A program made the position numbers and the translations under genes. Under the pieces are notes generated by a model. The model did no database searches. It had not been told where the DNA came from and was given only the letters and a program-made list of their open reading frames with translations. 64,000 bases of DNA, from the IMG/VR virus record IMGVR_UViG_3300009034_000001, positions 62,001 through 126,000 of that record. The stretch is one strand, 5' to 3'. The stretch's first letter is position 1; the number at the start of each line of letters is the position of its first letter. Below are positions 2,567 to 35,874 of the stretch, one piece after another. This stretch comes from a virus.

Positions 2567-3751
2567 TTATTTCAAACGTTTACACTTTTCCCTTTGTCCA
2601 GACCAACGAATATCTGGAACAAGTACATACCTCTTTTCTTCGATCCGATCTTTATATTTAATTAAATCCTTAAACATTCTTTTTAATTCATTTCTTATAT
2701 CATGACTTGGCTTATAACCAAGGTCAAGTAAATGTTGATGATCGGGATTATAATAATGTTCTTCAAGTTCAATTCTTGGATTTTCAATATTCCAAATCTT
2801 ACAATCTAAATCAAACTTGTTACCAACTTCTTTAACAATTTCAGCCAGTTGGTAAATTGAATATAATTCCTCAAATTGATTAAATGTTCTATATTCGCCC
2901 TTCTTTGGAGGATTTTCAAGCGCAAGGGTTAAACATTGCATTGAATCACGTAGAGGTAAGAAGCCACGCGTCTGATGACCTTTGCCATAAGGTGTTAATT
3001 CATGCCCGATCACGGCCTGGGCAACAAATCTATTAATAGCTGTTCCGAAGCATTGGTCCACGTCAAATCGTGTTAGTAGCCGTTCATCATCTCCCATTTC
3101 ATCAATTCGTGTTCCATATACTACACCTTGCATAATATCTGTAGATCGTAGATTCCAAAATTTACAAGCCATTATGATATTGTGGGTATCATGAACTTTA
3201 GTCTGATGGTACCAACTCCCAGCTTGTCTCGGAAAGATAAGTGTATCTTTACGTCCTCTATACTCTATGTCAAAGAAGCCTTCCGGGATGTCCACACACG
3301 GAGTGCCGTACTCGCCCATCGAACCGAGTTTAATAAGCGAGGCTCCAGGGCATGCCTCTTTCATCGCATACAGTATATTTAACGTGCCCATCAAATTATT
3401 CGTTTGAGTAAAAACACAATGGTCAACATCCAACATGGAATAAGGAGCGCTTGGCATCTCGCCAAGATGTACAATTGCATCAGGTTTAAATGATCTTAGA
3501 AGATTCCAAACAAAGTTATAGTTCGTTAGATCTCCTTTAATAAATTGTAAACTCTTGCCATACCTCTGTCTAAATGCGTGTAGTCGCTCGGTCATTCGGT
3601 AAATTGGCGTCACGGAATGTGATCCCATTTCCGCTACCCATTCGCGTCTAAAATAGTTATCACAACCTGAGACTTCGTGTCCACGCGCTACAAGATATTG
3701 TGCTAATGCAAAACCAATATAGCCATCAACGCCGGCAATAAAGACCCTCAC
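2567..3751 (-). CDS. sqdB: UDP-sulfoquinovose synthase (SQD1/SqdB-like)
   Basis: The product (394 residues) matches the SQD1 family along its whole length. This enzyme makes UDP-sulfoquinovose from UDP-glucose and sulfite using bound NAD. A Rossmann glycine motif is at residues 7-12 (GVDGYI). Family signatures include VHLGEMPSAPYSM (95-107), LGSMGEYGTP (142-151), SWYHQTKVHD (179-188), MQGVVYGT, YGKGHQTRGF and RIELEEHYYN. Y181 and K185 form the YxxxK pair, and S144 and E147 occupy the catalytic Thr/Glu region, with Ser in place of the usual Thr. It starts at GTG 3751 after TAGGAGGT. It follows the UDP-sugar dehydrogenase gene closely, consistent with a nucleotide-sugar operon. Other NDP-sugar epimerases lack this combination, so the assignment is firm. 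The end use (glycan or sulfolipid) is not shown. Confidence 0.93.
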   Translation of the reverse strand: MRVFIAGVDGYIGFALAQYLVARGHEVSGCDNYFRREWVAEMGSHSVTPIYRMTERLHAFRQRYGKSLQFIKGDLTNYNFVWNLLRSFKPDAIVHLGEMPSAPYSMLDVDHCVFTQTNNLMGTLNILYAMKEACPGASLIKLGSMGEYGTPCVDIPEGFFDIEYRGRKDTLIFPRQAGSWYHQTKVHDTHNIIMACKFWNLRSTDIMQGVVYGTRIDEMGDDERLLTRFDVDQCFGTAINRFVAQAVIGHELTPYGKGHQTRGFLPLRDSMQCLTLALENPPKKGEYRTFNQFEELYSIYQLAEIVKEVGNKFDLDCKIWNIENPRIELEEHYYNPDHQHLLDLGYKPSHDIRNELKRMFKDLIKYKDRIEEKRYVLVPDIRWSGQREKCKRLK

Positions 3752-3760
3752 GACTACCTC

Positions 3761-4606
3761 CTACCAATTCTTCTTTGTTCTCCAACGTAAATTCGTTCTC
3801 CAAATTTCACTCAGTAAATAGGGGATGTAACCTAACTCTTTGACCCTGTATATCAGTGCACGTAGATCCTTTGGCAAGCAACTTCCACCAAAGCCCAAAT
3901 CTCCATTCGGTCCCGGAACGTCACACTTGCCTGGTCCAAACCGTTTATCAAGAGCTACACATTCTGCAAGTTTATCATAATTAACACCTAGGAGTTGAGC
4001 AATGTTATACATTTCGTTTGCAAAACTCACCTTCAAGGCCAAGAATGCATTATTGAATGACTTAATTAGTTCTGCAGTTGTTAAATCGACATATATGATT
4101 GTGCAGGTAAAATCCGCTATAAGAAACACACGCTCAACCAATTCAAAAACCGCTTTTTCTTCTGTGCCAATAATAATTCTATCCGCGTTTCTCAAATCCT
4201 CAACTGCATGTTTCTCACGAAGGAACTCCGGGTTCATTGCAAAACTAATTGTTGGATATTGTGACTTTGGATAATGAAACAGATTTGAGTACTTTGTTTC
4301 TAAGCCTTTCGTAAAACCGGCAGGCATAGTTGAACGAATTACAATAATCAATCGTCTTTTTAATTTGAGCTCTTTTGCACGTTCCACTAGATTGTCTACC
4401 GCTTCCTTGACAATACTAACATCGCACTCGCCGGATTTCTTCATAGGTGTAGGCACGCAAACAAAAATTACCTCAGCTTCCCTTACCATTTCATAAATTG
4501 ATCCAACGTCCTTATACTTATCATATAAGTATATTTCATGATACGGTTTTAATACCTCATGGGTTGCTCCCCCAACAAATCCAACTCCACAAATTCCAAT
4601 TTTCAT
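3761..4606 (-). CDS. UDP-glucose/GDP-mannose 6-dehydrogenase family, short form
   Basis: The protein (281 residues) has the N-terminal NAD domain (GICGVGFVGGATHE, residues 4-17; FVCVPTPM near 48-55) and the central helical domain. The active-site motif GFGGSCLPKDL carries the catalytic cysteine at 243. Family members oxidise a UDP-sugar or GDP-sugar twice to the uronate. It ends soon after the catalytic loop, so the usual C-terminal UDP-binding domain (full length about 430) is missing. UDP-glucose is the most likely substrate because a UDP-glucuronate decarboxylase is encoded at 12376. Activity of the short form is uncertain. The start is ATG 4606, with a purine-rich AGGGGG site somewhat far upstream. 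Confidence 0.87.
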   Translation of the reverse strand: MKIGICGVGFVGGATHEVLKPYHEIYLYDKYKDVGSIYEMVREAEVIFVCVPTPMKKSGECDVSIVKEAVDNLVERAKELKLKRRLIIVIRSTMPAGFTKGLETKYSNLFHYPKSQYPTISFAMNPEFLREKHAVEDLRNADRIIIGTEEKAVFELVERVFLIADFTCTIIYVDLTTAELIKSFNNAFLALKVSFANEMYNIAQLLGVNYDKLAECVALDKRFGPGKCDVPGPNGDLGFGGSCLPKDLRALIYRVKELGYIPYLLSEIWRTNLRWRTKKNW

Positions 4607-4621
4607 AAAGTTTGTAACCCC

Positions 4622-5212
4622 CTACTTATTCATTGTATGTGTCCAATTACCTTCAGAATCGCCAGGCTTTATCTTTCGTATACTCCACACTGATCTTGCG
4701 ACTAACCAAGGCATATAACGCTTTGGAGTTGTCTCTAACAATACGGTCCCGATAGCTGGATAAACGCCAACAGCATGAAAATCGTGACCGACCAGAAAGC
4801 CGCCCGTCTTCAGATGTGGATCCCAAGCCAGAATATCCGCACGGACGCCTTCAAATGAATGGTCGCCATCAAGAAAGATCAAATCCGCCTTCTTCCCAAA
4901 CGTTTCGGCAACCTTAGTGCTTTCATTATTTATTATTGTAATATAGTTTGAATAATGTTTCAAGTTTTCTTTAATTGCTTCAAAGAGTTCTTCCTCCGAA
5001 CATTTCCAATTGAAAGCATAGGAACCACATTCAATCGTGTAAATATGTCGATGTGTGGTTACACAACACTCGGCCATAACCTTTGTAAATGTTGCATCTC
5101 TTCCGGTACCAACTTCTACAATTATTGCATCGTCGGGTAAACCGCGTATAATAGCTCTGACTAACTCTTGTTCAACTATCCCCTGTGCTTTGTCAAAGAT
5201 ATTGAAATCCAT
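4622..5212 (-). CDS. Class I SAM-dependent methyltransferase (Methyltransf_24/CmcI-like)
   Basis: The protein has 196 residues. The SAM-binding motif I is IIVEVGTGRDATF (near residues 30-42), and the acidic motif DLIFLDGDHSFEGVRAD (about 110-126) is typical of the Methyltransf_24/CmcI type. GGFLVGHDF follows as the post-motif strand. Methyltransferases of this type modify sugars or small metabolites and often lie in polysaccharide clusters. Here it sits between a second methyltransferase gene and the UDP-sugar dehydrogenase, so glycan O-methylation is a reasonable inference. AAAGGAGG lies about 13 bases upstream of the ATG, a rather long spacing. Confidence 0.8.
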   Translation of the reverse strand: MDFNIFDKAQGIVEQELVRAIIRGLPDDAIIVEVGTGRDATFTKVMAECCVTTHRHIYTIECGSYAFNWKCSEEELFEAIKENLKHYSNYITIINNESTKVAETFGKKADLIFLDGDHSFEGVRADILAWDPHLKTGGFLVGHDFHAVGVYPAIGTVLLETTPKRYMPWLVARSVWSIRKIKPGDSEGNWTHTMNK

Positions 5213-6227: not shown

Positions 6228-7130
6228 TTAGAACTCCCAACTTTCATCATACGGAAATGGCTTCTCATCCCACTTCCATTGACTGAAGGGGTGATCCATC
6301 ATAACCTCGGGATGTGGCCCATGATATTCCCTTATAAACACGCCATTAACCCAATCGAAATCCAATGTAAATGGTAACTGATGACGAACCCACTCTTCCT
6401 TCGTCCACTTGCGGCCATCCAACTCCTTATGTGGTGTATCGTGAGAGCCCGCCAGCCTTTCCCAACCGTTCCAAATAAGCCACCTCATTTTATAAGCAAT
6501 CCACTGCGGCCTCCGGACGTAACTATAATGATAAAAACTTTCCCATAACTGAACGGCACCACCGGTAGACTTGCCTCCAAAGAAGTTCATTGCAAGATCC
6601 GGTCCAGCACAATGTACTCCATCGCCCTCGGGAACTTTTTGAAACTTTAAATGCGACTGATGCCAACATCCTCTAGTGTCAGAATAAATTACATGTTTAA
6701 AGTCACCCCAAAAGTTCAACTTATATATCCCTATCTTTCCAGGTGATGGCCGACGACACTGTACAAGTGTACGTACCCGTTCAAATAGTTTTGCTGAATA
6801 GATCTCATCTGCATCTGTCCAAAGTATCCAGTCGCCAGGTTCAAAATGTTGCATGAAGATTTTACCAAGTTCAAGATCGGTTTTCTGCTCTTTAAGTAGT
6901 CCATACTGAATAAATTTAATCTTTCCTAACGGATCTGGAAAGTTCTTTACAATTTCCGCCGTGTTGTCAACTGAAAGTCCGTCTTCAGTGACCCACTTTG
7001 GGTTTGCCATTTTGTTCCAGCGATCAGCACATTCAATAATTACAATTTTGTCTACTTGATGGTACAGGGAATACAAAGTATACCATATATAATCCTGTTC
7101 ATTAAGTACCTTTAACGCAGCAATTAACAT
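6228..7130 (-). CDS. GT-A fold glycosyltransferase-like protein
   Basis: The product has 300 residues from ATG 7130, chosen over the upstream TTG because GAGGAGGAGAGG precedes it. It begins IAALKVLNEQDYIWYTL, like GT2-type transferases, and has a DxD motif in WILWTDADEIY that would bind the metal and the nucleotide-sugar. It shares segments with the next gene downstream: KVLNExDY, VTEDGLSxD, EIxKNFPDPxGKI and DWVNGV. The two are therefore paralogs. The C-terminal half (about 170-300) is specific to this pair. The product probably transfers a sugar in the phage glycan pathway; donor and acceptor are unknown. Confidence 0.8.
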   Translation of the reverse strand: MLIAALKVLNEQDYIWYTLYSLYHQVDKIVIIECADRWNKMANPKWVTEDGLSVDNTAEIVKNFPDPLGKIKFIQYGLLKEQKTDLELGKIFMQHFEPGDWILWTDADEIYSAKLFERVRTLVQCRRPSPGKIGIYKLNFWGDFKHVIYSDTRGCWHQSHLKFQKVPEGDGVHCAGPDLAMNFFGGKSTGGAVQLWESFYHYSYVRRPQWIAYKMRWLIWNGWERLAGSHDTPHKELDGRKWTKEEWVRHQLPFTLDFDWVNGVFIREYHGPHPEVMMDHPFSQWKWDEKPFPYDESWEF

Positions 7131-7154
7131 AAGCCTCTCCTCCTCAACGTTCAA

Positions 7155-8324
7155 TCAAAAGATTGAAAACTTCTTATAACTATACTCCCCGGACTTGAAC
7201 TTTTCCATCTGCTCTTGATAATGGCTTTCAACATCCTTCATATTCAATGGCTTCCCATCCCAACACAACGCATGAAAGTATGGATGGAGATAAGGAAAAA
7301 TTAGAGTTTCTGGATAATTAAAAATCTCCTTCTCGTAAAATGGTGCTATTTTTATATTATCGATATTTTTGCATGTAACACCGTTCACCCAATCCCAATT
7401 ATTCTTAAAGAATACCTGATGATTGACCCATTCCTGCTCGGTATACTTCTTACCATCAAGTTCGCGAATATTTTTTATACAATTAGTCACAAGACACCGA
7501 TCCCACCCCACGCTTACAAGATACTTCAATTTGGCGTAGATCCTCCAATCTGGCCGCGCGTATGCCATGTGACAGTAACACGGTATACGCATTCCAACTC
7601 CACCGCCACCCGGATTAGTACATTGGATTCGCACGTTGGAAGGATTTGAATTCTCACATAGTGGATGCTTCATTTCCCTAAAGATAGTAATATCTCCATG
7701 CCATAATCCCATTGTATCCTCTAAAATAACATGTTGCAAATCGTGCCAAAACTGATACGCCATAACAGTCATCACGGTGGTCTTTGGACGTCGATACAGA
7801 AAGATTTCTTTAATTCTTCTTAACGACCAATCGTACCAAACTTCATCACCATCTATGTGAAAGAAGATATCGCCATCGTCGATATAGGGAAACCAATAAT
7901 GACCTAACTGATTTAACGTTTCCCCAAAGAAGCCTGCTTGGATATATACAATTTTACCTTCCGGGTCCGGAAAGTTTTTTATAATCTCAGATGTGCCATC
8001 AATAGAAAGTCCATCTTCTGTAACCATTTCTGGCGCAACGCGTTTAAAGTGATTAGTGCAGCCTTCAACAATGACAATTCGATGCGCATGCGGATAAATA
8101 CTCCGTAACGAAGGCTCCAAGTAGTCTGCTTCATTAAGAACTTTATAACAAGGCACAAGACGCACTTCATCGCGTTGGGTATCGTGACTGGAAGTACGTA
8201 ACGGAACCCTATTACTTTCAGCTTCTTCTCGGAAGGTTTCCTGTTTAATAATTTCATCCTCTTCTAACCAAACTACACCTTCATGTTCTTTTACAACCGC
8301 CTTTGGTGATTTACTCGTTCCCAA
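7155..8324 (-). CDS. GT-A fold glycosyltransferase-like protein, paralog of the preceding gene
   Basis: I place the start at TTG 8324 because a clear GGAGGA site lies 6 bases upstream and just after the stop of the preceding gene. The longer in-frame version overlaps that gene and begins with an unrelated hydrophobic stretch. The protein has 389 residues. It matches the product of 6228-7130 over KVLNEADYLEPSL, VTEDGLSIDGT, EIIKNFPDPEGKI, ELDGKKYTEQEWVNHQ and DWVNGV. The metal site is FFHIDGDEVWYD (DGD). About 70 extra N-terminal residues are polar and lack a recognised domain. A tandem duplication followed by divergence is the simplest explanation. Confidence 0.8.
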   Translation of the reverse strand: MGTSKSPKAVVKEHEGVVWLEEDEIIKQETFREEAESNRVPLRTSSHDTQRDEVRLVPCYKVLNEADYLEPSLRSIYPHAHRIVIVEGCTNHFKRVAPEMVTEDGLSIDGTSEIIKNFPDPEGKIVYIQAGFFGETLNQLGHYWFPYIDDGDIFFHIDGDEVWYDWSLRRIKEIFLYRRPKTTVMTVMAYQFWHDLQHVILEDTMGLWHGDITIFREMKHPLCENSNPSNVRIQCTNPGGGGVGMRIPCYCHMAYARPDWRIYAKLKYLVSVGWDRCLVTNCIKNIRELDGKKYTEQEWVNHQVFFKNNWDWVNGVTCKNIDNIKIAPFYEKEIFNYPETLIFPYLHPYFHALCWDGKPLNMKDVESHYQEQMEKFKSGEYSYKKFSIF

Positions 8325-8337
8325 TGTATCTCCTCCA

Positions 8338-9303
8338 CTAACATATTTTTGAAATTTCACTTTCTTCCTCTGGATGATAAAATTTAAAGTACAGCTCATA
8401 AAATGCACGATAAATATCAGTTGGACGTTCAATATTATCCGTAGACGGAATCCAAGTACGTTTATCCTTGTTCTTTATAATCCAGCTCTTAAACTCAGCT
8501 GAGATACTACCACCCTTCATTCGGCTAACAATTTGTTGGGAATCCACTATCCCATCCCTCTTCGTGATTTCTACCAACTCCTTTGCATCTTCTGGATCAA
8601 TTCCACAACACTCGGGTCTTTCCAATGCAGTCAAGTACAATACCCACATTGCCGATTCCCACAGTGACTGTAACGTTTTCATCACAAACACAGGATAAGG
8701 AGCCCATAAATGTTTGTCCACGCCACTTAGTCCGCAGTGTGGACCCGTACACTGCCAAAATAACTCAGGACATTTCTTCCATAGCCAATATCTGGTATAC
8801 CATTTAAGGGGTGGGCCACTTAGATGTTCCTTAATGACGAAGCCTTTGTCCATCGGTAGATATCGAAATGGACGTTCAGGGATGCCATCCTGAATCTTAA
8901 TTCCCGGTAACTGAACAACAACAATATTTTCTTTCTCGCAACGCTCAATAATTAAATCCAAATTCTCAAGTAGGGTTCGACTGGGAATTTCGTCATCCTC
9001 AAGAAATAACACCCAATCTCCCTCATTGTTCAATGATGTTAAATAATTAATAGCGCCTTCAAAGTCATTATTCCACTCGCATTGAAACAGTTCAATATTT
9101 TTAAACCGATTTGCGCCCTTGATATCCGGAGGCTCTAAATATCCAACGCCACGTTTTGATGCATAATCTCTTATCCACTCAACTGTACCATCTGTGGAGC
9201 CGGTATCTAGAACGATTATTTTATCAACATATTCCATTACTTTTCCACAAATTAGCTTTACGTTAAACAAATGATTCCTTGTCAAAATATTTACTACTTT
9301 CAT
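8338..9303 (-). CDS. Family 2 glycosyltransferase
   Basis: This encodes 321 residues from ATG 9303, with GAGGTG 9 bases upstream. It is a standard GT2 type: an N-terminal strand VVNILTRNH, then IVLDTGSTDGTVEWI (near residues 29-43), a nucleotide-binding signature. The DxD equivalent is WVLFLEDDEIPS. The C-terminal half includes WQCTGPHCG and predicted helices. Related proteins transfer sugars from UDP- or GDP-donors to glycans or proteins. It is the first of three consecutive GT-A genes that end in the methyltransferase and nucleotide-sugar genes. Confidence 0.87.
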   Translation of the reverse strand: MKVVNILTRNHLFNVKLICGKVMEYVDKIIVLDTGSTDGTVEWIRDYASKRGVGYLEPPDIKGANRFKNIELFQCEWNNDFEGAINYLTSLNNEGDWVLFLEDDEIPSRTLLENLDLIIERCEKENIVVVQLPGIKIQDGIPERPFRYLPMDKGFVIKEHLSGPPLKWYTRYWLWKKCPELFWQCTGPHCGLSGVDKHLWAPYPVFVMKTLQSLWESAMWVLYLTALERPECCGIDPEDAKELVEITKRDGIVDSQQIVSRMKGGSISAEFKSWIIKNKDKRTWIPSTDNIERPTDIYRAFYELYFKFYHPEEESEISKIC

Positions 9304-10417: not shown

Positions 10418-12373
10418 TTAAGTTGGAATTGCAACGAGCACCAACTGTAACCTACACCATCGATTGTCTGGTACTTCAATATCTTGAGGTTGTGACTTAT
10501 AATAGTTAGTGGCGATGGGATACCATACTATGCCACTACTACTATACTCTTCAGTTGTTGCAACATATGTAGTTGTATAACCACCGAAGGAGAGTCCTGC
10601 ACTTTGACTACCGCATCCAGCTAAACGGCTTCTTGCTGTATTGAGGTCACCACTAGAAAACCAACTTGTACCATTATATTCTTCAGTTGTTGGAATGTGT
10701 ATAATTGTACCGCCGAAGGATAGTCCTTCGGTCTGGCTACCGCATCCAGCTAAATAACATCTTGATATATTAAGGTCACCTCCAGCGGCCCAACTTGTAC
10801 CGTTATATTCTTCAGTTGTTGGAACTGAGATTTCTTCTATATAACCACCGAAGGAGAGTCCTGCACTCGGGCTACCGCATCCAGCTAAATTGTTTCTTGC
10901 TGTACTTAGGTCACCTCCAGCCGCCCAACTTGTGCCATTATATTCTTCAGTTGTTGCAACATATGTACCCGTATCACCACCGAAGGAGAGTCCTGCGGTC
11001 TGACTACCGCATCCAGCTAAGACTTCTCTGGCTGTATTCAGGCCACCTCCAGCCGCCCAACTTGTACCATTATATTCTTCAGTTGTTGCAACAACTACAG
11101 TTGTATAACCACCAAAGGAGAGTCCTGCACTCTGGCTACCGCATCCAGCTAAACTTCTTCTTGCTGTATTAAGGCCACCTCCAGCGGCCCAACTTGTACC
11201 ATTATATTCTTCAGTTGTTACAACATTGGAACCTGTATCACCACCGAAGGAGAGTCCCGCGGTCTGGCTACCACATCCAGCTAAACTGCTTCTTGCTATA
11301 CTAAGGTCACCTCCAGCGGACCAAACCGGGTCTGCAAGTTCTGACTGAGTTGGAGCCGATTTACATTTGGCATATACTTTCTTACTCTGCGTTTCGGTCC
11401 AACTTAAGAAGCCCCAACCGCAAGAGGCTATACCAGAGTCAAAGTCAACAATCCAAGTACCTAATTCAAAGTATTCTTCTGTAGTAGCAGCGTTTGTAGC
11501 TGAATAACCCATCCAATAACCTCCACCGAAGGAGAGTCCTGTACTCTGGCTACCACATCCAGCTAAGCCGTATCTGGCTGTATTCAGGTCAATCCCAGCC
11601 GTCCAACTTGTGCCAATATATTCTTCAGTTGTTGGAATGGTTCTAGTTGTTTCTCCACCAAAGGAAAGTCCTGCGGTCTGGGTGCCACATCCAGCTAAGG
11701 CGTATCTTACTGTATTTAAGTTGTTGCAGCCGGACCAACTTGTACCGTTATATTCTTCAGTTGTTCCAATAAATACATCCGTATAACCACCGAAGGAGAG
11801 TCCTGCGGTCTGGCTACCGCATCCAGCTAAATGCCATCTGGCTGTATTAAGGCCACCTCCAGCGGACCAACTTGTACCATTATATTCTTCAGTTGTTGCA
11901 ACAAATGTACTCACCCAACCACCGAAGGAGAGTCCTGCGGTCTGGCTACCACATCCAGCTAACTGACGTCTTGCTGTATTCAGGCCGCCTCCAGCCGTCC
12001 AAATTGTGCCATTATATTCTTCAGTTGTTCCAACAACTACAGTTGTATAACCACCGAAGGAGAGTCCTGCGGTCTGGCTACCGCATCCAGCTAAGACTTC
12101 TCTTGCTGTATTTAGATCACCGCCAGCCGCCCAACTTGTACCGTTGTACTCTTCAGTTGTTACAACATATGTAGTAGTATAACCACCGAAGGAGAGTCCT
12201 GCGGACTGACTACCGCATCCAGCTAAGCCGAATCTGGCTGTATTCAAGTTTGCGCCATCAATCCAACGACCAACTTCTGTGCCGTCTAACGCAAGTTTGT
12301 CGTCAGCACCGGTAACGTCGTCGTATGTTCCCCCATCAAAATCACTAGTTGTGGTCCAAGTTTTAGTTGCCAT
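10418..12373 (-). CDS. Kelch-repeat adhesin with repeats inserted in a beta scaffold
   Basis: The product has 651 residues. The start MATKTWTTTSDFDGG resembles the small protein of 33573-34040 (MATKTWTENPDF). Six Kelch-like repeats (core LAGCGSQTAGLSFGG and TTEEYNGTSW) are followed by a scaffold segment, TWIVDFDSGIASCGWG, then six more repeats, then a terminal segment with VPDNRWCRLQLVLVAIPT. Both scaffold pieces align with the small protein (RTNFDSGIVSCGWG; VDNRWLQLEVVLVEG). The gene looks like that scaffold with two six-unit Kelch cassettes inserted, which would give two six-bladed propellers. It is probably a tail or surface adhesin. The repeats are almost identical in DNA, so copy number may vary. 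Confidence 0.85.
   Translation of the reverse strand: MATKTWTTTSDFDGGTYDDVTGADDKLALDGTEVGRWIDGANLNTARFGLAGCGSQSAGLSFGGYTTTYVVTTEEYNGTSWAAGGDLNTAREVLAGCGSQTAGLSFGGYTTVVVGTTEEYNGTIWTAGGGLNTARRQLAGCGSQTAGLSFGGWVSTFVATTEEYNGTSWSAGGGLNTARWHLAGCGSQTAGLSFGGYTDVFIGTTEEYNGTSWSGCNNLNTVRYALAGCGTQTAGLSFGGETTRTIPTTEEYIGTSWTAGIDLNTARYGLAGCGSQSTGLSFGGGYWMGYSATNAATTEEYFELGTWIVDFDSGIASCGWGFLSWTETQSKKVYAKCKSAPTQSELADPVWSAGGDLSIARSSLAGCGSQTAGLSFGGDTGSNVVTTEEYNGTSWAAGGGLNTARRSLAGCGSQSAGLSFGGYTTVVVATTEEYNGTSWAAGGGLNTAREVLAGCGSQTAGLSFGGDTGTYVATTEEYNGTSWAAGGDLSTARNNLAGCGSPSAGLSFGGYIEEISVPTTEEYNGTSWAAGGDLNISRCYLAGCGSQTEGLSFGGTIIHIPTTEEYNGTSWFSSGDLNTARSRLAGCGSQSAGLSFGGYTTTYVATTEEYSSSGIVWYPIATNYYKSQPQDIEVPDNRWCRLQLVLVAIPT
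10545..12245 (-). repeat. Near-identical Kelch coding repeats, 6 + 6 units
   Basis: Twelve direct repeats of about 132 bp lie in two blocks of six, split by a non-repeat segment near 11330-11500. A block of roughly 44 bp containing gaaggagagtcctgc and ggctaccgcatccagctaa recurs with few changes. The variable part of each unit (such as YTTTYVV, DTGTYVA, WVSTFVA) lies between the conserved cores. The high DNA identity points to recent unequal recombination. Confidence 0.85.
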
Positions 12374-12375
12374 CT

Positions 12376-13335
12376 TTAGTCTTCCAAGTTTCTCCTGATA
12401 TATTCCAAAGTACTCTGTAAACCTAAGTCTAAGGAAATTAGGGGTTCCCAGTTGAACAAACTTTGTGCCAATTTAATTGACGGTTGACGTTTGATTTGTT
12501 CATCTAAGTTACCCGGTTTAAAAACGATTTTCGAACTTGAGCCAGTTAATTGCTTTACCTTAACTGCTAAGTCGTAAATTGAAATATGTTCCTTTGGATT
12601 GCCAAGATTAACAGGTTCACAACAAGCCTCAAGTTGACAACGGGATAACCCTAACAAGCCTTCAACCATGTCTGACACAAAACAGAAAGAACGTGTTTGA
12701 CTGCCAGAATCATATATAACAATGTCCTCATCCTTTAATGCCCACGACATAAATTTAGGAATCACAAGTCCGTCTGTTATTTTCATGTTTGGTCCATAAG
12801 TATTGAATATCCTAGCAATTTTTACGTCAAGTCCATAGAGTTTATGAAATAACAATGCCGCAGTTTCTCCAAACCTCTTTGACTCGGTATATGGACAACG
12901 ACTACTTGCGAAATGTGTTGTACAATTATCCGATTCACATTGGGGAACGTCTATACCTCCATAAACCTCTGAAGAGCTAGTAAAAAAGAATTGTGCATCC
13001 CTTTCCCTCGCAAACTCCAACAACTTTAACGTGCCAACCGAATTGACCAACAAGGTATTCAAAACGTCGGTTTCACAACTAAATTTTGGAATTGCAGGGG
13101 AAGCCAAATGGAAAATTACATCTACTTCCGGCATTTCATCTAAACCCTTATCTGGGAAATGCAAAACATCATGCTTGTAAAACATAAAATTTTTGTGATC
13201 GAGCAGTGGTTGAATATTCCGTTTATTACCGGTGTAAAAGTAATCAACACAATAAACAGTATGTCCTTCATTAAGGAGTCGTTTACACAAGTTTGATCCA
13301 ATAAAGCCAGCTCCTCCGGTAACAAAATACTTCAC
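12376..13335 (-). CDS. UDP-glucuronate decarboxylase-like (UDP-xylose synthase, UXS)
   Basis: This is a 319-residue short-chain dehydrogenase/epimerase of the UXS type, which converts UDP-glucuronate to UDP-xylose with bound NAD. The nucleotide motif is TGGAGFIGSNL (6-16). UXS features are HLASPAIPKF (76-85), TSSSEVYGG (119-127), the YxxxK pair Y149/K153 in CPYTESKRFGET, IARIFNTYGPNM, YDSGSQTRSFCFVSDMVEG and VNLGNPKEH. It starts at GTG 13335 after GGGAGGA. With the dehydrogenase at 3761 it would give the two-step route UDP-glucose to UDP-glucuronate to UDP-xylose. A different UDP-sugar product cannot be excluded. Confidence 0.88.
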   Translation of the reverse strand: MKYFVTGGAGFIGSNLCKRLLNEGHTVYCVDYFYTGNKRNIQPLLDHKNFMFYKHDVLHFPDKGLDEMPEVDVIFHLASPAIPKFSCETDVLNTLLVNSVGTLKLLEFARERDAQFFFTSSSEVYGGIDVPQCESDNCTTHFASSRCPYTESKRFGETAALLFHKLYGLDVKIARIFNTYGPNMKITDGLVIPKFMSWALKDEDIVIYDSGSQTRSFCFVSDMVEGLLGLSRCQLEACCEPVNLGNPKEHISIYDLAVKVKQLTGSSSKIVFKPGNLDEQIKRQPSIKLAQSLFNWEPLISLDLGLQSTLEYIRRNLED

Positions 13336-13338
13336 AGC

Positions 13339-14373
13339 TTAATCCTCCCAACTAATCAGGTCACCAGGAATCAGTTTCGCAAGTTTTAATTCATTCATAT
13401 ATTCCAAGGCCTTATGATAAACTCTAAGTGGCTTTAATGCTCTCATACAACGAACTACCTGATTAATACAAACATTTCGATGCCTCTTTTCGCCCGCTTG
13501 CCATTCCCAACACGGGACGCAAGGAACTTCCTCTGCAACAATTGCACGGCAACGATTGTAATTTTTGATTCTAATCTCCGGAGGTAATGAACCAAATAGT
13601 GCAAGTGTAGGTATATCAAATCCGGCCGTTAGATGTAAAAACAATGTATCTACGGTTACAAAAAAGTCACACCGTTTTGTCAAAGCAATCGATTGTTCTA
13701 ATGTCAATAATCCACATGTGTTGATCAAACCAGAGGACTCAAATCCTCTATCGGAGTCATCACCTAAGAGTATAAGACGATAGAAGGTTTTGTCAAATAG
13801 AGAAACAAACTCCCTTGCGTAAATCTCAAACCAACTTCGTAATCTAAATCTCGCAAAGGGTGAAAAGCCAATAGTTACAACTTCCGGTGACAGCTTTTGT
13901 TTACAGAATTCCTCTGCCCATTTCTCAGCTTGACGATCTTTTGGAATAATTAACCGATAGTCAGATATTGTAATATCGCACAACTTTGCAATGGCATCAA
14001 TCCTTGGAATTCGGTTTACTTCATCTACATATTGTTCAAGCTTGCCTTCAAGATTAAAAAAGAGATCAAACTTATCAACATCGACAGGATCCGTTCTATA
14101 ATCGGGCCAACCTGGCCCGTGATACTGACTTTCGATATTAGCCAAATGATCAATATACTTATTTCCCTTCAGAAGAGGAAAGTTCTCAGTCTTCGTGAAG
14201 TAGGTAAGGTCACAGCCTTTATACTTTCCCTTTAACGCTCTGATAATCGGCGTCGACATAAGTATATCACCAGCGCCTCCTGAACGAAGAAAGCCAATAG
14301 ATGAAATCCGTCCAGACCGTTTGGACTGGATAACTTTATTTCTGGAAGTGAAATCAGCGCGCCCGATCTTCAT
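13339..14373 (-). CDS. GT9 family heptosyltransferase-like glycosyltransferase
   Basis: The protein (344 residues) follows the GT-B architecture of ADP-heptose:LPS heptosyltransferases. The N-terminal acceptor domain has RSGGAGDILMSTPIIRALK, and the C-terminal donor domain has VTIGFSPFARFRLRSW, LTLEQSIALTKRCDFFVTVDTLFLHLTA and PTLALFGSLPPE. A Cys-containing segment, VPCVPCWEWQ, is shared with the second GT9 gene at 18520. Whether the donor is heptose is unknown. A GmhA-like isomerase at 51220 makes heptose plausible. The start has GGGAGGA 9-10 bases upstream. Confidence 0.85.
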   Translation of the reverse strand: MKIGRADFTSRNKVIQSKRSGRISSIGFLRSGGAGDILMSTPIIRALKGKYKGCDLTYFTKTENFPLLKGNKYIDHLANIESQYHGPGWPDYRTDPVDVDKFDLFFNLEGKLEQYVDEVNRIPRIDAIAKLCDITISDYRLIIPKDRQAEKWAEEFCKQKLSPEVVTIGFSPFARFRLRSWFEIYAREFVSLFDKTFYRLILLGDDSDRGFESSGLINTCGLLTLEQSIALTKRCDFFVTVDTLFLHLTAGFDIPTLALFGSLPPEIRIKNYNRCRAIVAEEVPCVPCWEWQAGEKRHRNVCINQVVRCMRALKPLRVYHKALEYMNELKLAKLIPGDLISWED

Positions 14374-17200: not shown

Positions 17201-18520
17201 CTACGTTTTCAACTGTTTTGTAAAATCTTTCTCGTCAATACAAATATGTTCCGTTGGTATCCTACTTGGGTTGAACTTTGATATCAAATCCTCTATACTA
17301 GATATTTTTGGACTGTCAATTAAATTAGCCCTGAATGCTAACTCACCTAACACAACTTCAGGACGAGAAAAACTTAAAAAGTGTTCAACCGGTAGCGACC
17401 TTACCGTTTTTGATAATTTATAACCGTTTTCGTTTATAATCAAACCGTGATACATATTATTAGCCTTGTAGTCAATTAGTTGTCCTGCTTCACGTTCCAG
17501 AGTGTCCCCGAACGACTCAATATCAGAACCACGAATTGAATGTGACACGCCAAATTCCTTATCGTCAATGGCAGACGTTAAAGCAAGATCCGGCAAGCCG
17601 CCAAAGTAAATACCTACATCTAGCTGATAACACCTTTTCCTCACAACCGTTTTTGGGTCGGAAAGGTCTAAATTTAATTTCCTTCCTCTACAATAGTCAT
17701 CATAATAATACTCAAGTCGAACTTGACGATAGAAGTCATCAAAATGCATCGATAAACTAGATGTATTCACCGGAGAAAAGATAAAACTCTCGGTTTGATG
17801 TCTCCGTATCCATTCAGGTCGTTTTTCCTGAAAACAATAACGACCCGATTTCTCAATTCTAAGTAAAAGTTCATTGTCATTCCAAAAAGAGAACACTCGT
17901 AGCGGTTCCTCAAACCAAACAATCTTAATAGCTTGAATATAACTTTTCTTATCAAAGTGAAAACTCAAACCAGCTTTGCGTTCCAACATATAATGTAACG
18001 CGTAAGGCATAAAGGTTGTAAGGTCTTCCTTTAGTACATTGTCCGGTTCAAAACCTTGTACAACCGGCGTGAACGAAGTCACCTTTGGTACAATCTCTTC
18101 ACCCTCAGGACTGAAAAACTTTATACTTTGAATTGAACATGGCGGTGGATACTTATCATCACGCGCCAATCTAGGATGACCTTTCTTATTGCATCTAAGA
18201 GCAATTTCCTGTTCAGTACAGTTACAAAAGTAAAGTTGATCAGATGTGGTAAGCAACCTCTTTACAGTCTCAAGATAAAGTTTTCTCCGTTCCGATTGAA
18301 ATACAACAAAGTCTGACTTTAAACCAAAACGATCCAAAACACGAATGAAACCTTCTCGCATTTCAATCCGCCAATCAGGCATCTTTTGTCCATCGACGCG
18401 TAAAAAGAACTTTCCATTAAACTTCCTAGCATATAGAAAGTTTAACAAACAATTAAACAGTGACCCTAAATGTGTCTCGCCAGATGCTGTAGGTGCCCAT
18501 CTTGTTACTACATTACTCAT
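17201..18520 (-). CDS. Glutamyl-tRNA/Glu-Q-tRNA(Asp) synthetase-like catalytic protein with insertion
   Basis: The start is ATG 18520, overlapping the upstream stop as TGATG, with AAAGGAG 10 bases before; length 439 (numbering below counts from the preceding TTG, one residue longer). The class I catalytic core is present: RWAPTASGETHLGSL (8-22, the HIGH equivalent, closest to the LHFGSL form of Glu-Q-RS), GVSHSIRGSDIESF, and GYKLSKTVRS (KMSKS equivalent, K369-K372). A zinc pattern C100-x-C102 ... Y125-x3-C129 matches the C-x-C ... Y-x3-C site of Glu-Q-RS (YadB). There is no anticodon-binding domain. About 150 extra residues (140-300) lie between the zinc site and the second half of the core. 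It may glutamylate a tRNA or use activated Glu elsewhere; the substrate is unknown. Confidence 0.8.
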   Translation of the reverse strand: MSNVVTRWAPTASGETHLGSLFNCLLNFLYARKFNGKFFLRVDGQKMPDWRIEMREGFIRVLDRFGLKSDFVVFQSERRKLYLETVKRLLTTSDQLYFCNCTEQEIALRCNKKGHPRLARDDKYPPPCSIQSIKFFSPEGEEIVPKVTSFTPVVQGFEPDNVLKEDLTTFMPYALHYMLERKAGLSFHFDKKSYIQAIKIVWFEEPLRVFSFWNDNELLLRIEKSGRYCFQEKRPEWIRRHQTESFIFSPVNTSSLSMHFDDFYRQVRLEYYYDDYCRGRKLNLDLSDPKTVVRKRCYQLDVGIYFGGLPDLALTSAIDDKEFGVSHSIRGSDIESFGDTLEREAGQLIDYKANNMYHGLIINENGYKLSKTVRSLPVEHFLSFSRPEVVLGELAFRANLIDSPKISSIEDLISKFNPSRIPTEHICIDEKDFTKQLKT

Positions 18521-19473
18521 CAATGCACATCTCCTTTCTGAAGTAATTTCATAACATCTTTAAAGACCATTTCTTCTGTTATTTTATTTAAACACTCTTT
18601 GTATCTGGGTGTATTGAAACATTTACTGAAATCATAACACGGGACACACGGCAACTCCGCAAGACAAATCGTACGGTACTGGTTGTAATATCGACAACGG
18701 AAGTCTGGTTTAACTGTGCCAAACAAACCAACGAATGGCACGTTCAAGAAACCAGCGATATGTAAAATACCACTGTCAACACAAACAACGGCATCTAACT
18801 CATTCAAAACGGCGCACAACTCCGTTAAATTGAGCGTACCGGACAAATTTAAAAAGTCAGGTCGCGCAACAGTTTGAACAACCTTGTTATGTAACAATAC
18901 AACTCCAAAACCTTTTTCATTTAACTTATCAACAAGGTGAGTCCAATTATTCCATGTTCTTACCTTCGCAAACGCGAAGGGCGCAATTCCAATCTTACGT
19001 TTGCCAACTAGATTTTCCAACCGTTGCTTTGCACGATGTTTCTCTAAATCACTTACAACTATCCTATATGCAGTATCAACATGGTTGAAGTCAATGCCAA
19101 TGTAATCCGCAATTAAATTAAGCCTATGACCCAAAGTACAAACCGGTTTGTAATCAATAACGCCCTGTAAATTTAGGTAGCACTGACCAGGTTCTTTAGA
19201 ACCATCTAAATATACGTTGTCTACCAAATTTAAACCTTTAATAAACTCAACATACTTCTTACCTGTTATTAAATTCAATTGTGGATTCAACTTCTTTAAC
19301 TGTAACTTACATGCCTTAGCAACAAGTGAAACAAACAAAACGTCGCCAAGGCCTCCAACCCTCCTTAGCCAAATTTCTAAGTTACCCTTCGAAGTTTCGA
19401 TTAATGTATCAAAACAGCTTCGAAAAATCTTAAAGTCAACATTTACTTCGATCTTGCTTCCAAATTTTGGCAT
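18520..19473 (-). CDS. GT9 family heptosyltransferase-like glycosyltransferase
   Basis: I choose ATG 19473 (317 residues), just after the stop of the preceding gene; a longer reading to 19551 would overlap that gene by 67 bases. There is no strong ribosome site. The GT-B fold is indicated by IWLRRVGGLGDVLFVSLVAKA, IGIAPFAFAKVRTWNNW, LTELCAVLNELDAVVCVDSGILHIAGF and PFVGLFGTVKPDFR. The ELPCVPCYDF segment is shared with the GT9 protein at 13339. It ends in TGATG with the synthetase-like gene, so the two are probably co-translated. Confidence 0.83.
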   Translation of the reverse strand: MPKFGSKIEVNVDFKIFRSCFDTLIETSKGNLEIWLRRVGGLGDVLFVSLVAKACKLQLKKLNPQLNLITGKKYVEFIKGLNLVDNVYLDGSKEPGQCYLNLQGVIDYKPVCTLGHRLNLIADYIGIDFNHVDTAYRIVVSDLEKHRAKQRLENLVGKRKIGIAPFAFAKVRTWNNWTHLVDKLNEKGFGVVLLHNKVVQTVARPDFLNLSGTLNLTELCAVLNELDAVVCVDSGILHIAGFLNVPFVGLFGTVKPDFRCRYYNQYRTICLAELPCVPCYDFSKCFNTPRYKECLNKITEEMVFKDVMKLLQKGDVH

Positions 19474-20390: not shown

Positions 20391-21959
20391 CTATTCCTCC
20401 TTATTTAATCTTTTAACAAACTTAACTTCTTTCCACCAAACCTGAATACCGTGTGGCTTTACAACTTCTTTTGGCGGATCAAACGTTGCAACCAATTCAA
20501 AGGTGTAAACATAACATTCCTTAACTTTTGGCCACCATTTCTTCCAGTCTTCAGGTAAAATTTTATGTTGTTTAAACAACTTTTCCTTCACATCTCCAAT
20601 AGGAACAGGTCCTTCCACGGTTAGTAGTTTCAAAATGCCATATACATGATTTTCCTCTAAGAAGTATACCTCTTGACCAAGATACTTTTCAAACTTCTTC
20701 GACTTAACAATTAACGTCTTCGTTCCGTCAGCAATCATACTTGCATGAGGCTTAACGAGGTATACACCAGGGAGTTTACGAAGTCGTGCTAATTCTTCGT
20801 CACGCCAAATTGGTTCAACCTCAACTTCTACAACTTTAGGTTCCTCTATCGGTTTAATTGGCTTTAGTAAATCCCAAGCACTTCTAACCATTTCCCCATT
20901 ACGAATCTCCTTTATAACCCTTACATAAGCGTCATTCTCATTGTCAACAACATTGTGGGTCTTGTTTAGTAACACTTCCACAATTCTACTATCCTGCCGA
21001 ACAAGTTCCATATCAAATTCAGTTACTTCTCTAATCAAACCCGCTTCATCCCACAAAGCTTTAAAAGACTCAACTAACTCGGGATTCCAGATCTTATTCC
21101 TTTCCCAATCCAGCCTATAATCACCTCGATTTCTTAACCTATATATGGCACTCAACTCAGCAAAACTTTCCTTTGCATATTCTTCAGCAGCATCTCGTGG
21201 GAAACCGCCAACTATCTTTTTCTTAAAACTTTCGGCATATTCATTCACTGGCGTTTTTGCAAGCTTCAAGTTCTTTCTGAATTCCATTTTCAAACGTAAA
21301 GCTTTACGATTTTTCGAAAACTTCCAGAACATGTGTGCAGATTCATGAGTCATAGCATAATTAAACAGGCCAAACTTTTTCATACGATATGTGGATAACC
21401 TTATGGTTCTTGTGATATAGTCAGCCTCACCAACAAGATCACGAGCCTTAGGAAATATTGTTGATTTAATTTTTGGTTGCAATTCAATTGCTTTAACATA
21501 CCTTGTGAAACCTATCGGTAGAGTATTAAAAATGAAGGCAGTTTGATCTTTAAATGAAGCCGGCACACCTTTACCAAGTGTAATTAATCCAGAAACTCGA
21601 TCTTTAATGAAAATCCGTTGTCCGGACTTTGTGGTAATCCAATGGCCCATCATTTTCAACACTTTATTAAATACAATTTTAAACAAGCGGGATACTTCAT
21701 CAGCAGAATGTTCATCTAATGCAAATGAATCTTCAACAAACCAATCCTCATCCCACATCCTCCAAATTGGTTCAACCTCAACTTCAATGATAGATTTAGA
21801 TTCAGGTTTTGGCAACTGTAAAACGTTCCATGTTGACTCAATTAGTTCATCTTCCTCATTATACTTGGATACTAACTCCCAGAAGGCATTCTTCGAGCCC
21901 TCGGGAACGTAGTTGAAATCCTTATCAAGAAACGTTTTAATTTCGTCAATCTTGCTCAT
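20391..21959 (-). CDS. Metallopeptidase-like (HExxH) protein with C-terminal ASCH/PUA-like domain
   Basis: This is a 522-residue multidomain protein. Residues 1-68 form the short leader domain that recurs in this locus (FLDKDFNYVPE ... EVEVEPIWR). Residues 104-120 carry MGHWITTKSGQRIFIKD. The metallopeptidase core has H205-E-S-A-H209 in MTHESAHMFWKF and E264 in ESFAELSAIYRLR as a likely third zinc ligand, so the site looks intact. A second leader copy ends near residue 380. The last 130 residues (KPHASMIADGTKTLIVKSK, WWPKVKECYVYTF, GIQVWW) resemble the ASCH/PUA-like fold. The 5' end overlaps the upstream gene by ATGA. It may be a virion-injected effector or maturation protein; this is inferred. 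Confidence 0.78.
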   Translation of the reverse strand: MSKIDEIKTFLDKDFNYVPEGSKNAFWELVSKYNEEDELIESTWNVLQLPKPESKSIIEVEVEPIWRMWDEDWFVEDSFALDEHSADEVSRLFKIVFNKVLKMMGHWITTKSGQRIFIKDRVSGLITLGKGVPASFKDQTAFIFNTLPIGFTRYVKAIELQPKIKSTIFPKARDLVGEADYITRTIRLSTYRMKKFGLFNYAMTHESAHMFWKFSKNRKALRLKMEFRKNLKLAKTPVNEYAESFKKKIVGGFPRDAAEEYAKESFAELSAIYRLRNRGDYRLDWERNKIWNPELVESFKALWDEAGLIREVTEFDMELVRQDSRIVEVLLNKTHNVVDNENDAYVRVIKEIRNGEMVRSAWDLLKPIKPIEEPKVVEVEVEPIWRDEELARLRKLPGVYLVKPHASMIADGTKTLIVKSKKFEKYLGQEVYFLEENHVYGILKLLTVEGPVPIGDVKEKLFKQHKILPEDWKKWWPKVKECYVYTFELVATFDPPKEVVKPHGIQVWWKEVKFVKRLNKEE

Positions 21960-24439
21960 TTAACCTTCTCCCACCATGGTCTACCAGGTTCAAAAATCTT
22001 AGCTCGTCCCCATATGTCTTTAAACGCTTTAATGGTTAATGGATTTCTAGACTCCATCTGCTGCCACTGACTGGAATAGTGTTTTCTAACACGATAAAGT
22101 CCAGATAACTCAGCAAACGTCTCCGATGCGATACGTTTATGTCCCATTTTGCCAAAGTTGTCTGCAATTCGTTTAGTCAGAAACGGTTCCTTGTGCACGG
22201 CCATAGAAAAATTGTGTCTAAACGGCATCCAGTGCTTCGTAGTCAAGACATTTCTCCAAGTGTGGTGACCGCAGATATGTCCCACAACTCTTGAAGGCCT
22301 TCGTCCACCCGCGGAAAAGGCGCCTGTATATATCCTCATCACGCCGGGGCCAGAAAAATATTCAGAAAATACAGCCTTCTGCGGGGCAAGTTTAATAGCG
22401 GGTTTCAGCCACCCCGGCGTCTTAAACAGTTCTATTCGTTTCAAATTATGTGTAAAGGCCGCCGGCATTGTGTTAAATAAGAACGCAAACTGGCCATGGG
22501 TCTGTTTTGTCACTCCACGGCCAACTTTTATCAAATTAGACACTTTATCAGGTATAAAAAACTTCTGACCAGTCTTTGTAGTAATCCAATGACCCAATTC
22601 GCCAGTTACTTTATTCTTTATAAGTGCAAATAAACGTGAAATTATATTATATGAACTTTCACGCCAAATAGGTTCAACTTCAACTTCCTCCACTTTCGGT
22701 ATCATTTCTTCAGGTTTTGTAACTTTCATTGGGATCCAAGCGTTATTAACCAACTTGCCATCTAAATAGGTCTTTACAACCTTCAACAATGCACGTTCCG
22801 GGTCTTCAACGGGAGCAAAACTCTTGTCTAGAAACACCTCCAACGTATCGACTGCAACATCAACTTTTTCCTCAACTTGTCGTTGTAAACGAGTGGCTTC
22901 CAACATCTCTTTAAACGCTTTCACAGTACCAGGACCCTCAGTCTGTAGTTGATTCCATAACCTTTTGTAACCCGACTTTCTGCGGTGTGCATGTAAAACT
23001 GCAATTTCCGCAAAGCTTTCATCCACCCAAGTTTCAGGCCTACTTTGTCGCATCCAATTTGCATAGGGTGAAATAAAAGGACCTTCATCACGTAATGCAG
23101 CCGCAAATTTAATATTCATCGGTTCTAGCCGTGGATTTTCAAAGACAAGATGTCCACAATCATGAGTAATAGCATGTCGTAATCTCCCGCTCATTCTCTT
23201 AAATACAACATCATGATAAATTGTAACTTTGCCAGTTCTATAATCAGCTAACGCAGCAGGTATCGCTTTGTAAACGTCAACAACTTTTGTTCCCGGCCAC
23301 TTTTTTATTTCAATTTCTTTAATATAGCGAGTCAAGTGTGTAGGCAATGTGTTAAACAGAAACGAGTACCTATCCTTAATTCCTCCGGGAAGACCAAGGT
23401 CAACTTTAATTAGCTTTGACACTTTATCCTCAATAAAAAACCGTTGTCCAGACTTTGTAGTAATCCAATGGCCAAGTTTACCTGTTAATTTATTAATAAC
23501 CAGTTTCCAAAACGCGCGTGAAATATTATGCTCATCATCGCGCCAAATTGGTTCAACCAGTACATCAACAACCTTTGGCACAATTTCCTTTTCCAATTTA
23601 ACTGTTTTTAACGCAATCCATCTACTACTAATTAGTTCATCATCAATATATTCTTTCTCAACACGATACCACGCCTTTTCGAAACTATCTACAACGTTAA
23701 AGTCGTTATCAAGTAATATAGTAAGCCGTTTCGGAACTTCACGCGCCAATTCATCACCAAGTACTTCCGGCATACTTCTTACCAATTTTGCATCATTCCA
23801 TAACTCCTTGAACGCGGCAACCGTTCCGGGCGCACGTTTCTCCATGGTAATCCACTTTGGCTTAACTTTAGGATTCCTCCTTAGTCGATATATACTTGAA
23901 AGATCTGCAAAACTTTCACGATGCCATGGTTTCGTCAAACCCATCTTCCTAAAAAGTTTGGCATATGTGGTCGGTGAAACCTTTTCCTTATTTAATGCAC
24001 TCGCAAATGCCTGTTTCGCTTTCATAGCGCGAGTCGACCGCGAAAACCGCCAGTAGAAATGTGCACCTTCATGGGTCAAAACCCAGCTTGCTGTCCAGTC
24101 AGGTCTAGTTCTCGTGAAATTGGCCGGGAATAATTTTATTGTTCTTGCCTTATAAACTGCTTGTCCTATGTCCCCAGACACTATACCAGGAAAAATTTCA
24201 GACGGCCGTTCAAGTCGAATTGTTTTGAGATATCGCGTGAACCCAGAAGGTAAGGTATTGAAGATAAAACTCATCCTACCCACCTGAGTTGACCGAACAC
24301 CCTCGCCAAGCGAAAATAAACCGGAAACTTTATCCTCAATGAAGAACCGTTGTCCGGACTTTGTGGTAATCCAATGGCCAAGTTTACCAGTTAATTTATT
24401 AGTAACCAATTTCCAGAAAGCTCTTAACATGGTATCCAT
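21956..24439 (-). CDS. Protein with three tandem metallopeptidase-like units, two with altered active sites
   Basis: The 827-residue protein has three repeats of one architecture: GHWITTKSGQ segment, FNTLPxxxTRY segment, zinc motif, ESFAELS-type helix, then the leader for the next unit. Unit 1 has H123-E-G-A-H127 with E175 and looks catalytic. Unit 2 has H426-D-C-G-H430 with E474. Unit 3 has H721-I-C-G-H725 with E773. In units 2 and 3 the catalytic Glu is Asp or Ile while the metal ligands remain, so they may bind zinc without hydrolysis. The 5' parts of units 1 and 2 are also very similar in DNA (near 23430-23515 and 24335-24425). ATG 24439 follows AAGGAGATAA. Confidence 0.8.
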   Translation of the reverse strand: MDTMLRAFWKLVTNKLTGKLGHWITTKSGQRFFIEDKVSGLFSLGEGVRSTQVGRMSFIFNTLPSGFTRYLKTIRLERPSEIFPGIVSGDIGQAVYKARTIKLFPANFTRTRPDWTASWVLTHEGAHFYWRFSRSTRAMKAKQAFASALNKEKVSPTTYAKLFRKMGLTKPWHRESFADLSSIYRLRRNPKVKPKWITMEKRAPGTVAAFKELWNDAKLVRSMPEVLGDELAREVPKRLTILLDNDFNVVDSFEKAWYRVEKEYIDDELISSRWIALKTVKLEKEIVPKVVDVLVEPIWRDDEHNISRAFWKLVINKLTGKLGHWITTKSGQRFFIEDKVSKLIKVDLGLPGGIKDRYSFLFNTLPTHLTRYIKEIEIKKWPGTKVVDVYKAIPAALADYRTGKVTIYHDVVFKRMSGRLRHAITHDCGHLVFENPRLEPMNIKFAAALRDEGPFISPYANWMRQSRPETWVDESFAEIAVLHAHRRKSGYKRLWNQLQTEGPGTVKAFKEMLEATRLQRQVEEKVDVAVDTLEVFLDKSFAPVEDPERALLKVVKTYLDGKLVNNAWIPMKVTKPEEMIPKVEEVEVEPIWRESSYNIISRLFALIKNKVTGELGHWITTKTGQKFFIPDKVSNLIKVGRGVTKQTHGQFAFLFNTMPAAFTHNLKRIELFKTPGWLKPAIKLAPQKAVFSEYFSGPGVMRIYTGAFSAGGRRPSRVVGHICGHHTWRNVLTTKHWMPFRHNFSMAVHKEPFLTKRIADNFGKMGHKRIASETFAELSGLYRVRKHYSSQWQQMESRNPLTIKAFKDIWGRAKIFEPGRPWWEKVK

Positions 24440-26377: not shown

Positions 26378-26391
26378 GGGTCCTCCTTCAA

Positions 26392-26589
26392 CTAAAACCA
26401 CCCTTTTTCGGCCTTTCGTTGACGGTTACAAACTTTGTTACATACGACGGTAGTTCCTTTCCAGGTTGTAAAAGCACCGCCGAAACATTTACATCGTCTA
26501 CACTCGTCAAGAGATATGTTACCTTTTTTACACTTTACTTTGCCATCAACTACCGGAATATGTAAATACTTACGAAGTTTAAAAATCAT
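26392..26589 (-). CDS. Small zinc-ribbon-like protein
   Basis: The 65-residue protein starts at ATG 26589, overlapping the upstream stop as ATGA. It has cysteines in KCKKGNISLDECRRCKCFGG and VVCNKVCNRQ, enough for one zinc site. It is basic and has no other domain. Its tight coupling to the phosphoesterase-like gene upstream suggests that they act together. Confidence 0.65.
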   Translation of the reverse strand: MIFKLRKYLHIPVVDGKVKCKKGNISLDECRRCKCFGGAFTTWKGTTVVCNKVCNRQRKAEKGWF

Positions 26590-31965: not shown

Positions 31966-31981
31966 TCTAATTTACCCTCCA

Positions 31982-32071
31982 TTAAATTAATTTCACTAAA
32001 AGTTCCAATACTTTTTCAGTAAGATTGAGTTCAACTTTTAGTTTGTTTCGTAAGCACATTATTTTTTGCTC
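31982..32071 (-). pseudogene. Remnant of the small propeller-companion gene
   Basis: Directly after the stop of the shorter propeller gene, the frame from 32071 to 31982 reads EQKIMCLRNKLKVELNLTEK and then a leucine-rich tail. It aligns with the C-terminus of the 29775-30101 product (QQKIAALRNKLKTALNLTEE). The first 80 residues of that gene are absent. The remnant looks like what was left when a deletion joined the propeller repeats to the tail of the companion gene. An internal ATG with GGGAG upstream could still yield a 25-residue peptide. Confidence 0.65.
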
Positions 32072-32073
32072 CC

Positions 32074-35828: not shown

Positions 35829-35874
35829 GTGCCCCCTATTTTTTTTTAAAAAAATATTTCTCAAACTTGATCTC

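Follow-up and report, generated by a model that had tools for sequence, protein, structure and literature searches.

A Pro-type member of the SQD1 family, predicted to make UDP-sulfoquinovose, in an uncultivated tailed phage

The stretch of 64,000 nucleotides analysed here (the window) is part of a 241-kb tailed-phage genome in which almost all genes lie on one strand; of the genes given below with window coordinates, those for sugar-modifying enzymes, glycosyltransferases, methyltransferases, portal and terminase are on the minus strand, as is the repeat-protein gene at 10418-12373. At 2567-3751 we find an ORF of 394 aa (its stop codon lies within these coordinates) with a GTG start and an AGGAGGT Shine-Dalgarno sequence just 5' of it, and the sequence-only reading was right to take it as a real gene. 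NF041015, PDB entry 1qrr and an AlphaFold2 model assign its product to the SQD1/SqdB/Agl3 family as a predicted UDP-sulfoquinovose synthase with proline at position 100 and serine at 144. The gene stands at the end of a run of methyltransferase, glycosyltransferase (GT) and UDP-glucose dehydrogenase genes, and Kelch-like repeat proteins flank this run. Only 9 nt upstream lies a gene for a short UDP-glucose/GDP-mannose dehydrogenase (3761-4606; 281 aa; PF03721, PF00984, TIGR03026 at 194 bits), which consists of the N-terminal and central domains without the UDP-binding domain at the C terminus, and which keeps the GFGGSCLPKD motif. Given this gap and the AGGAGGT preceding the ORF, the two genes are probably translated together. 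Two methyltransferase genes follow (4622-5212, PF13578; 5218-6240, PF08241), then two related genes (6228-7154 and 7155-8432) that have no Pfam match but share, by eye, a VTEDGLS..NFPDP block and a D-x-D motif, and are probable GT-A glycosyltransferases, and then a family 2 glycosyltransferase (8338-9303, PF00535).

Further along are a second NAD-dependent epimerase/dehydratase from a different SDR branch (12376-13335; PF01370; best NCBIfam match TIGR01181, 110 bits and under its cut-off), a family 9 glycosyltransferase (13339-14373, PF01075) and a two-domain glycosyltransferase, GT4 plus GT2-like (34116-36005; PF00534, PF13692; phrog_2170). Large repeat-rich proteins, with Kelch-like TEEYNGTSW or FDGRYVYFVP repeats, are encoded at 1-1900, 10418-12373 and 30115-33546; that at 10418-12373, with TEEYNGTSW...AGLSFGG units and internal repeats detected by blastn, is a possible virion surface protein. 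Judged from their sequences, these proteins are possible surface or adhesion proteins of the virion and candidate glycan carriers. The portal protein (37203-40904; phrog_12, E 1e-8), the terminase large subunit (40918-42339; phrog_38, 175 bits), PolA and DnaB all lie within the window, and a second IMG/VR contig of 173 kb represents the same virus, since the 11.75 kb surrounding the gene match at 100% identity and the TerL is the same; carriage by a phage is thereby borne out. Two other features were observed in the window: residues 5-110 of the ORF product at 17201-18523, and these only, match PF00749, the first part of the catalytic domain of Glu/Gln tRNA synthetases, and HExxH-like motifs of zinc proteases (THESAHMF, THEGAHFY, THDCGHLV) recur in the repeated domains of large proteins encoded at 20391-24439, near the structural genes.

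Profiles, predicted fold and phylogeny agree that the phage protein is a genuine member of the SQD1/Agl3-like family and not a different epimerase. The NCBIfam model for UDP-sulfoquinovose synthase, NF041015, aligns end to end at 558 bits (E 1e-167), with the next family at 40 bits; GalE, RmlB, UXS and Gmd-type profiles all score 40 bits or less and none is best. Among solved structures, Arabidopsis SQD1 (1qrr, 1i24, 1i2b) leads, with 1qrr at 410 bits, E 1e-121 and 46% identity across almost the entire protein, and the next molecule at 38 bits. The curated cut-off of NF041015 is 575 bits, and among the control genomes only one passed it, presumably Sulfolobus acidocaldarius through Agl3. The 558 bits of the query fall short of it, which probably counts for little, since the SqdB (sqdBD-type) of Sinorhizobium pSymB itself reaches only 332; after this comparison we dropped the shortfall as an argument against membership. 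Other relatives range from 364 to 603, one Pro-type homolog scoring 589. The AlphaFold2 model (mean pLDDT 87, with loop 146-158 uncertain) superposes on 1qrr with a TM score of 0.93, compared with about 0.65-0.7 for GalE types, and Foldseek ranks 1-3 are all SQD1. The query did not fall in another epimerase family, the outcome that the sequence-only reading had named as counting against it. A 66-row tree puts it in a clade of 43 Pro-type sequences that has full support; its nearest relatives there are MAG sequences from Desulfobacterota, Myxococcota-labelled and Planctomycetota genomes. The closest relatives are bacterial, at 71-73% identity, and every cellular sequence found differs from the query by at least 27%. 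To our knowledge, the Pro clade that holds the query has no characterised or assayed member.

The claim that the protein keeps nearly all SQD1 signatures holds with the exception of one position, on which the sequence-only reading had not remarked. Ser144, Glu147, Tyr181 and Lys185 are present in the translation as had been stated, and so are Met145, Tyr148 and His182; the catalytic Tyr/Lys, the Met, the Glu-Tyr pair and the His are shared with Arabidopsis SQD1. The family signature [ST]MG...YxxxK (PMC8987622) and the Glu147-Tyr148 pair are found as S144-M145-G146-E147-Y148, Y181 and K185, and H95 is kept too. Mutagenesis of Agl3, the UDP-sulfoquinovose synthase for the S-layer N-glycan of S. 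acidocaldarius and a member of the same family, found His95, Arg101, Met145, Glu147, Tyr148, Ser180, Tyr182, Thr185 and Lys186 to be important (PMC4388408), and the query keeps all of these except Arg101, which is Pro100. This exception matters because Agl3 R101A is inactive (PMC4388408). Arginine occupies the site in SQD1, Agl3 and rhizobial and roseobacter SqdB, the motif being EQRSAP in Agl3 and EQR[SA]AP in SQD1 and SqdB-type sequences (Sinorhizobium, Marinovum and others), whereas the query has EMPSAP. Proline is found there in 82 of the 92 homologs compared. The arginine has proved essential in a single enzyme, Agl3, which does not establish it as family-defining, and we speak of a Pro-type variant. 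A single clade of Arg-type sequences, which would set the Pro type apart, was rejected (AU p 0.009); the Arg-type sequences require two changes on the 66-row tree, with Arg and Pro types interleaved. The two residues have thus been interchanged within the family, a pattern that fits an unchanged reaction across the two types without proving it.

Ser144, which replaces Thr145 of SQD1, is probably a minor and tolerated change, since Agl3 T144A retains full activity (PMC4388408); the SQD1 T145A crystal 1i2b contains UDP-sulfoquinovose/UDP-glucose according to its entry title. Serine is found at this site in 11 of 80 viral homologs (the best 80 of 114); the cellular sequences closest to the query all lack it, and Thr/Ser changed six times on the tree of viral homologs. 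We had considered the residue as a peculiarity of this phage and rejected that idea in view of the other viral serines and the active Agl3 mutant.

The genomic surroundings of Pro-type relatives bear on what the enzyme makes. The closest sequences, Pro-type homologs of Desulfobacterota, Nitrospirota and Bipolaricaulota (L064 at 73% and L017 at 71% identity), share Pro100 with the query, differ in being cellular and having Thr144, and lie in glycan clusters. In L017, a Bipolaricaulota MAG, the operon consists of an APS/PAPS reductase gene (cysH) and an ATP sulfurylase gene (sat), which overlap, the SQD1-like gene and a GT2; as predicted from sequence, this would place sulfate activation and reduction to sulfite beside a sulfite-using enzyme. 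An APS kinase gene lies near the SQD1-like gene in three Bathyarchaeota, and in three viral contigs, L126, L158 and L188, a PAPS reductase gene adjoins the Pro-type gene or is one small ORF away (spans L126:5351-7104, L158:5063-7188 and L188:6001-7649; the reductase has an ECGIH motif). Two of these three contigs also have TerL or portal, and all three may encode both a sulfite supply and synthesis of the sulfoquinovose donor. Among 28 viral contigs searched whole, only these three have PAPS reductase, and a control set of viral loci centred on a generic epimerase had none (0 of 79); the enrichment by itself, 3 of 64 (non-redundant, from the best 80 of 114) against 0 of 79, is weak. A Pelagovum plasmid also pairs PAPS reductase with an SQD1-like gene, there of the Arg type. 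Linkage of Pro-type genes to cysH-sat in L017, to APS kinase and to viral PAPS reductase provides good, if indirect, evidence for UDP-sulfoquinovose as the product of Pro-type enzymes. Neighbours of cellular homologs included 16 GT2 and 14 epimerases among 109, and bacterial homologs often lie inside polysaccharide or glycan clusters.

An alignment search found relatives in 114 IMG/VR stretches, of which the best 80 were kept, giving 64 sequences non-redundant at 95% identity, the query virus included. GenBank phages, by contrast, had no SQD1-like homolog in 50,697 INPHARED records searched with three different family queries, a search in which the generic epimerase of the query phage does obtain matches; the BFVD held no SQD1-like viral model. 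Homologs in dozens of uncultivated viruses against none in GenBank phage records mark a gap between isolate collections and viromes. One earlier report, on the Cariaco Basin, describes a phage contig with a putative UDP-sulfoquinovose synthase, which it treats under glycosylation (PMC7785012); by its description this is the same type of gene, although that phage is Mu-like and comes from euxinic water at 900 m. We found no further reports in the open-licence literature. The viral copies do not form one group (well-supported branches among the best 80 of 114 force at least five changes), and their scatter on the tree implies several acquisitions. A virus-only clade with an SH-aLRT of 100 in a quick tree without bootstrap comprises 37 of the 64 non-redundant viral sequences, and the query lies outside it. 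The conserved neighbourhood of this clade consists of a PD-(D/E)XK nuclease, an AAA ATPase, dCMP deaminase, the SQD1-like gene, a ParB-methylase, a UDG-DNA polymerase (PolA) fusion and ThyX, with a GT2 also present on 14 of 15 contigs; its loci are among L130-L195 (for example L192:1293-13173). For most related contigs the terminase model PF03354 gave no useful information.

Taking family, predicted fold, catalytic residues, phage context and the linkage of close relatives to sulfate-activating or -reducing and GT genes together, we favour, with moderate confidence, a phage UDP-sulfoquinovose synthase of an Arg-less (Pro100) subfamily, of bacterial origin, that supplies the donor for a virion or cell-surface glycan. 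Its source would have been a Desulfobacterota/Myxococcota-like bacterium, in an acquisition distinct from those behind most of the other viral copies. The enzyme would bind NAD+ and UDP-glucose, oxidise C4, eliminate the C6 hydroxyl and add sulfite to give UDP-sulfoquinovose; neither PAPS reductase nor APS kinase was found in the query contig, so the host would have to supply the sulfite. A glycosyltransferase of the phage would then move the sulfonated sugar to the glycan acceptor. No SqdX/SQD2/SqdD-type transferase was identified among the several GTs of the contig, judged from domain matches and the adjacency of homologs. The best candidate, by association, is a PF13524 glycosyltransferase far from the SQD1-like gene, outside the window (contig 26322-27416), whose homologs in the viral contigs L008 and L009 have a 4-nt overlap with the SQD1-like gene. 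Use of the product in a phage-directed glycan is likely, and Agl3 offers a likely parallel, its product being used in a glycoconjugate rather than a lipid. The earlier proposal of sulfonated sugars on virions or the host surface is a reasonable inference, given the GT and methyltransferase neighbourhood and the cysH-sat-sqd1 operon of a close relative.

The main competitor to a sulfonating enzyme, one that we hold to be unlikely, keeps the family and changes the chemistry: with Pro for Arg, the protein would oxidise and dehydrate UDP-glucose (to the 5,6-ene or another product) or add something other than sulfite as the nucleophile, and its product would go into a phage glycan that is not sulfonated. 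The arginine of the SQD1, Agl3 and SqdB types and the loss of activity in Agl3 R101A speak for it, as does the finding that Agl3 without sulfite yields UDP-glucose-5,6-ene (PMC4388408), and most viral homologs have no linked sulfite gene. Against it, one Pro-type gene belongs to a cysH-sat operon and others have a viral cysH beside them, and the interleaving of Arg and Pro types in the tree means that the reaction need not differ. That a bacterial gene was misjoined to a phage contig during assembly would explain why the closest relatives are bacterial, at 71-73% identity, but we put its probability close to nil, since a second assembly has the gene within identical sequence and with the same TerL, the base composition of the gene (0.39) is that of the contig (0.38-0.42), and every cellular sequence found is well diverged from it.

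Other uses of the same product have been weighed as well. Synthesis of the sulfolipid headgroup is the best-known role of SqdB and SQD1 (PMC4388408), and an auxiliary gene raising host sulfolipid (SQDG) synthesis during infection is conceivable; we consider it very unlikely, as a canonical plasmid sqdB is followed by its GT (glycogenin-like in L104, a glycosyl transferase in L112), whereas the query sits among methyltransferases, a UDP-glucose dehydrogenase and GTs near repeat-rich proteins, and its bacterial homologs are often in polysaccharide clusters. Use on phage DNA or nucleotides, instead of a surface glycan, is suggested by the virus-only clade of 37, where the gene lies between dCMP deaminase and the ParB-methylase, beside UDG-PolA and ThyX, and in L192 shares 4 nt with the deaminase gene; for the query, which lies outside that clade in a GT/methyltransferase run, and with no DNA glycosyltransferase identified, this seems fainter still. 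A broader scenario, which we offer as speculation and think rather improbable, is that UDP-sulfoquinovose-type enzymes are old and widespread in uncultivated tailed phages, the replication and nucleotide module of the virus-only clade and its coupling to dCMP deaminase pointing to an early use, during infection, of sugars that are sulfonated or modified in some other way, perhaps on phage DNA; query-like phages would use the same donor in glycan islands.

Should the favoured activity hold, phages would make sulfonated sugar donors, a chemistry so far characterised in plants, bacteria and archaea, and virions or host surfaces could receive strongly acidic sulfonates. The role of the active-site arginine also becomes directly testable through the Arg-to-Pro subfamily. 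The arginine is missing as well from homologs on haloarchaeal plasmids (L106 and L110, with AAQPSAPYSQ), which are followed by two more epimerase/oxidoreductase genes, and the SqdB annotation of such sequences deserves a check.
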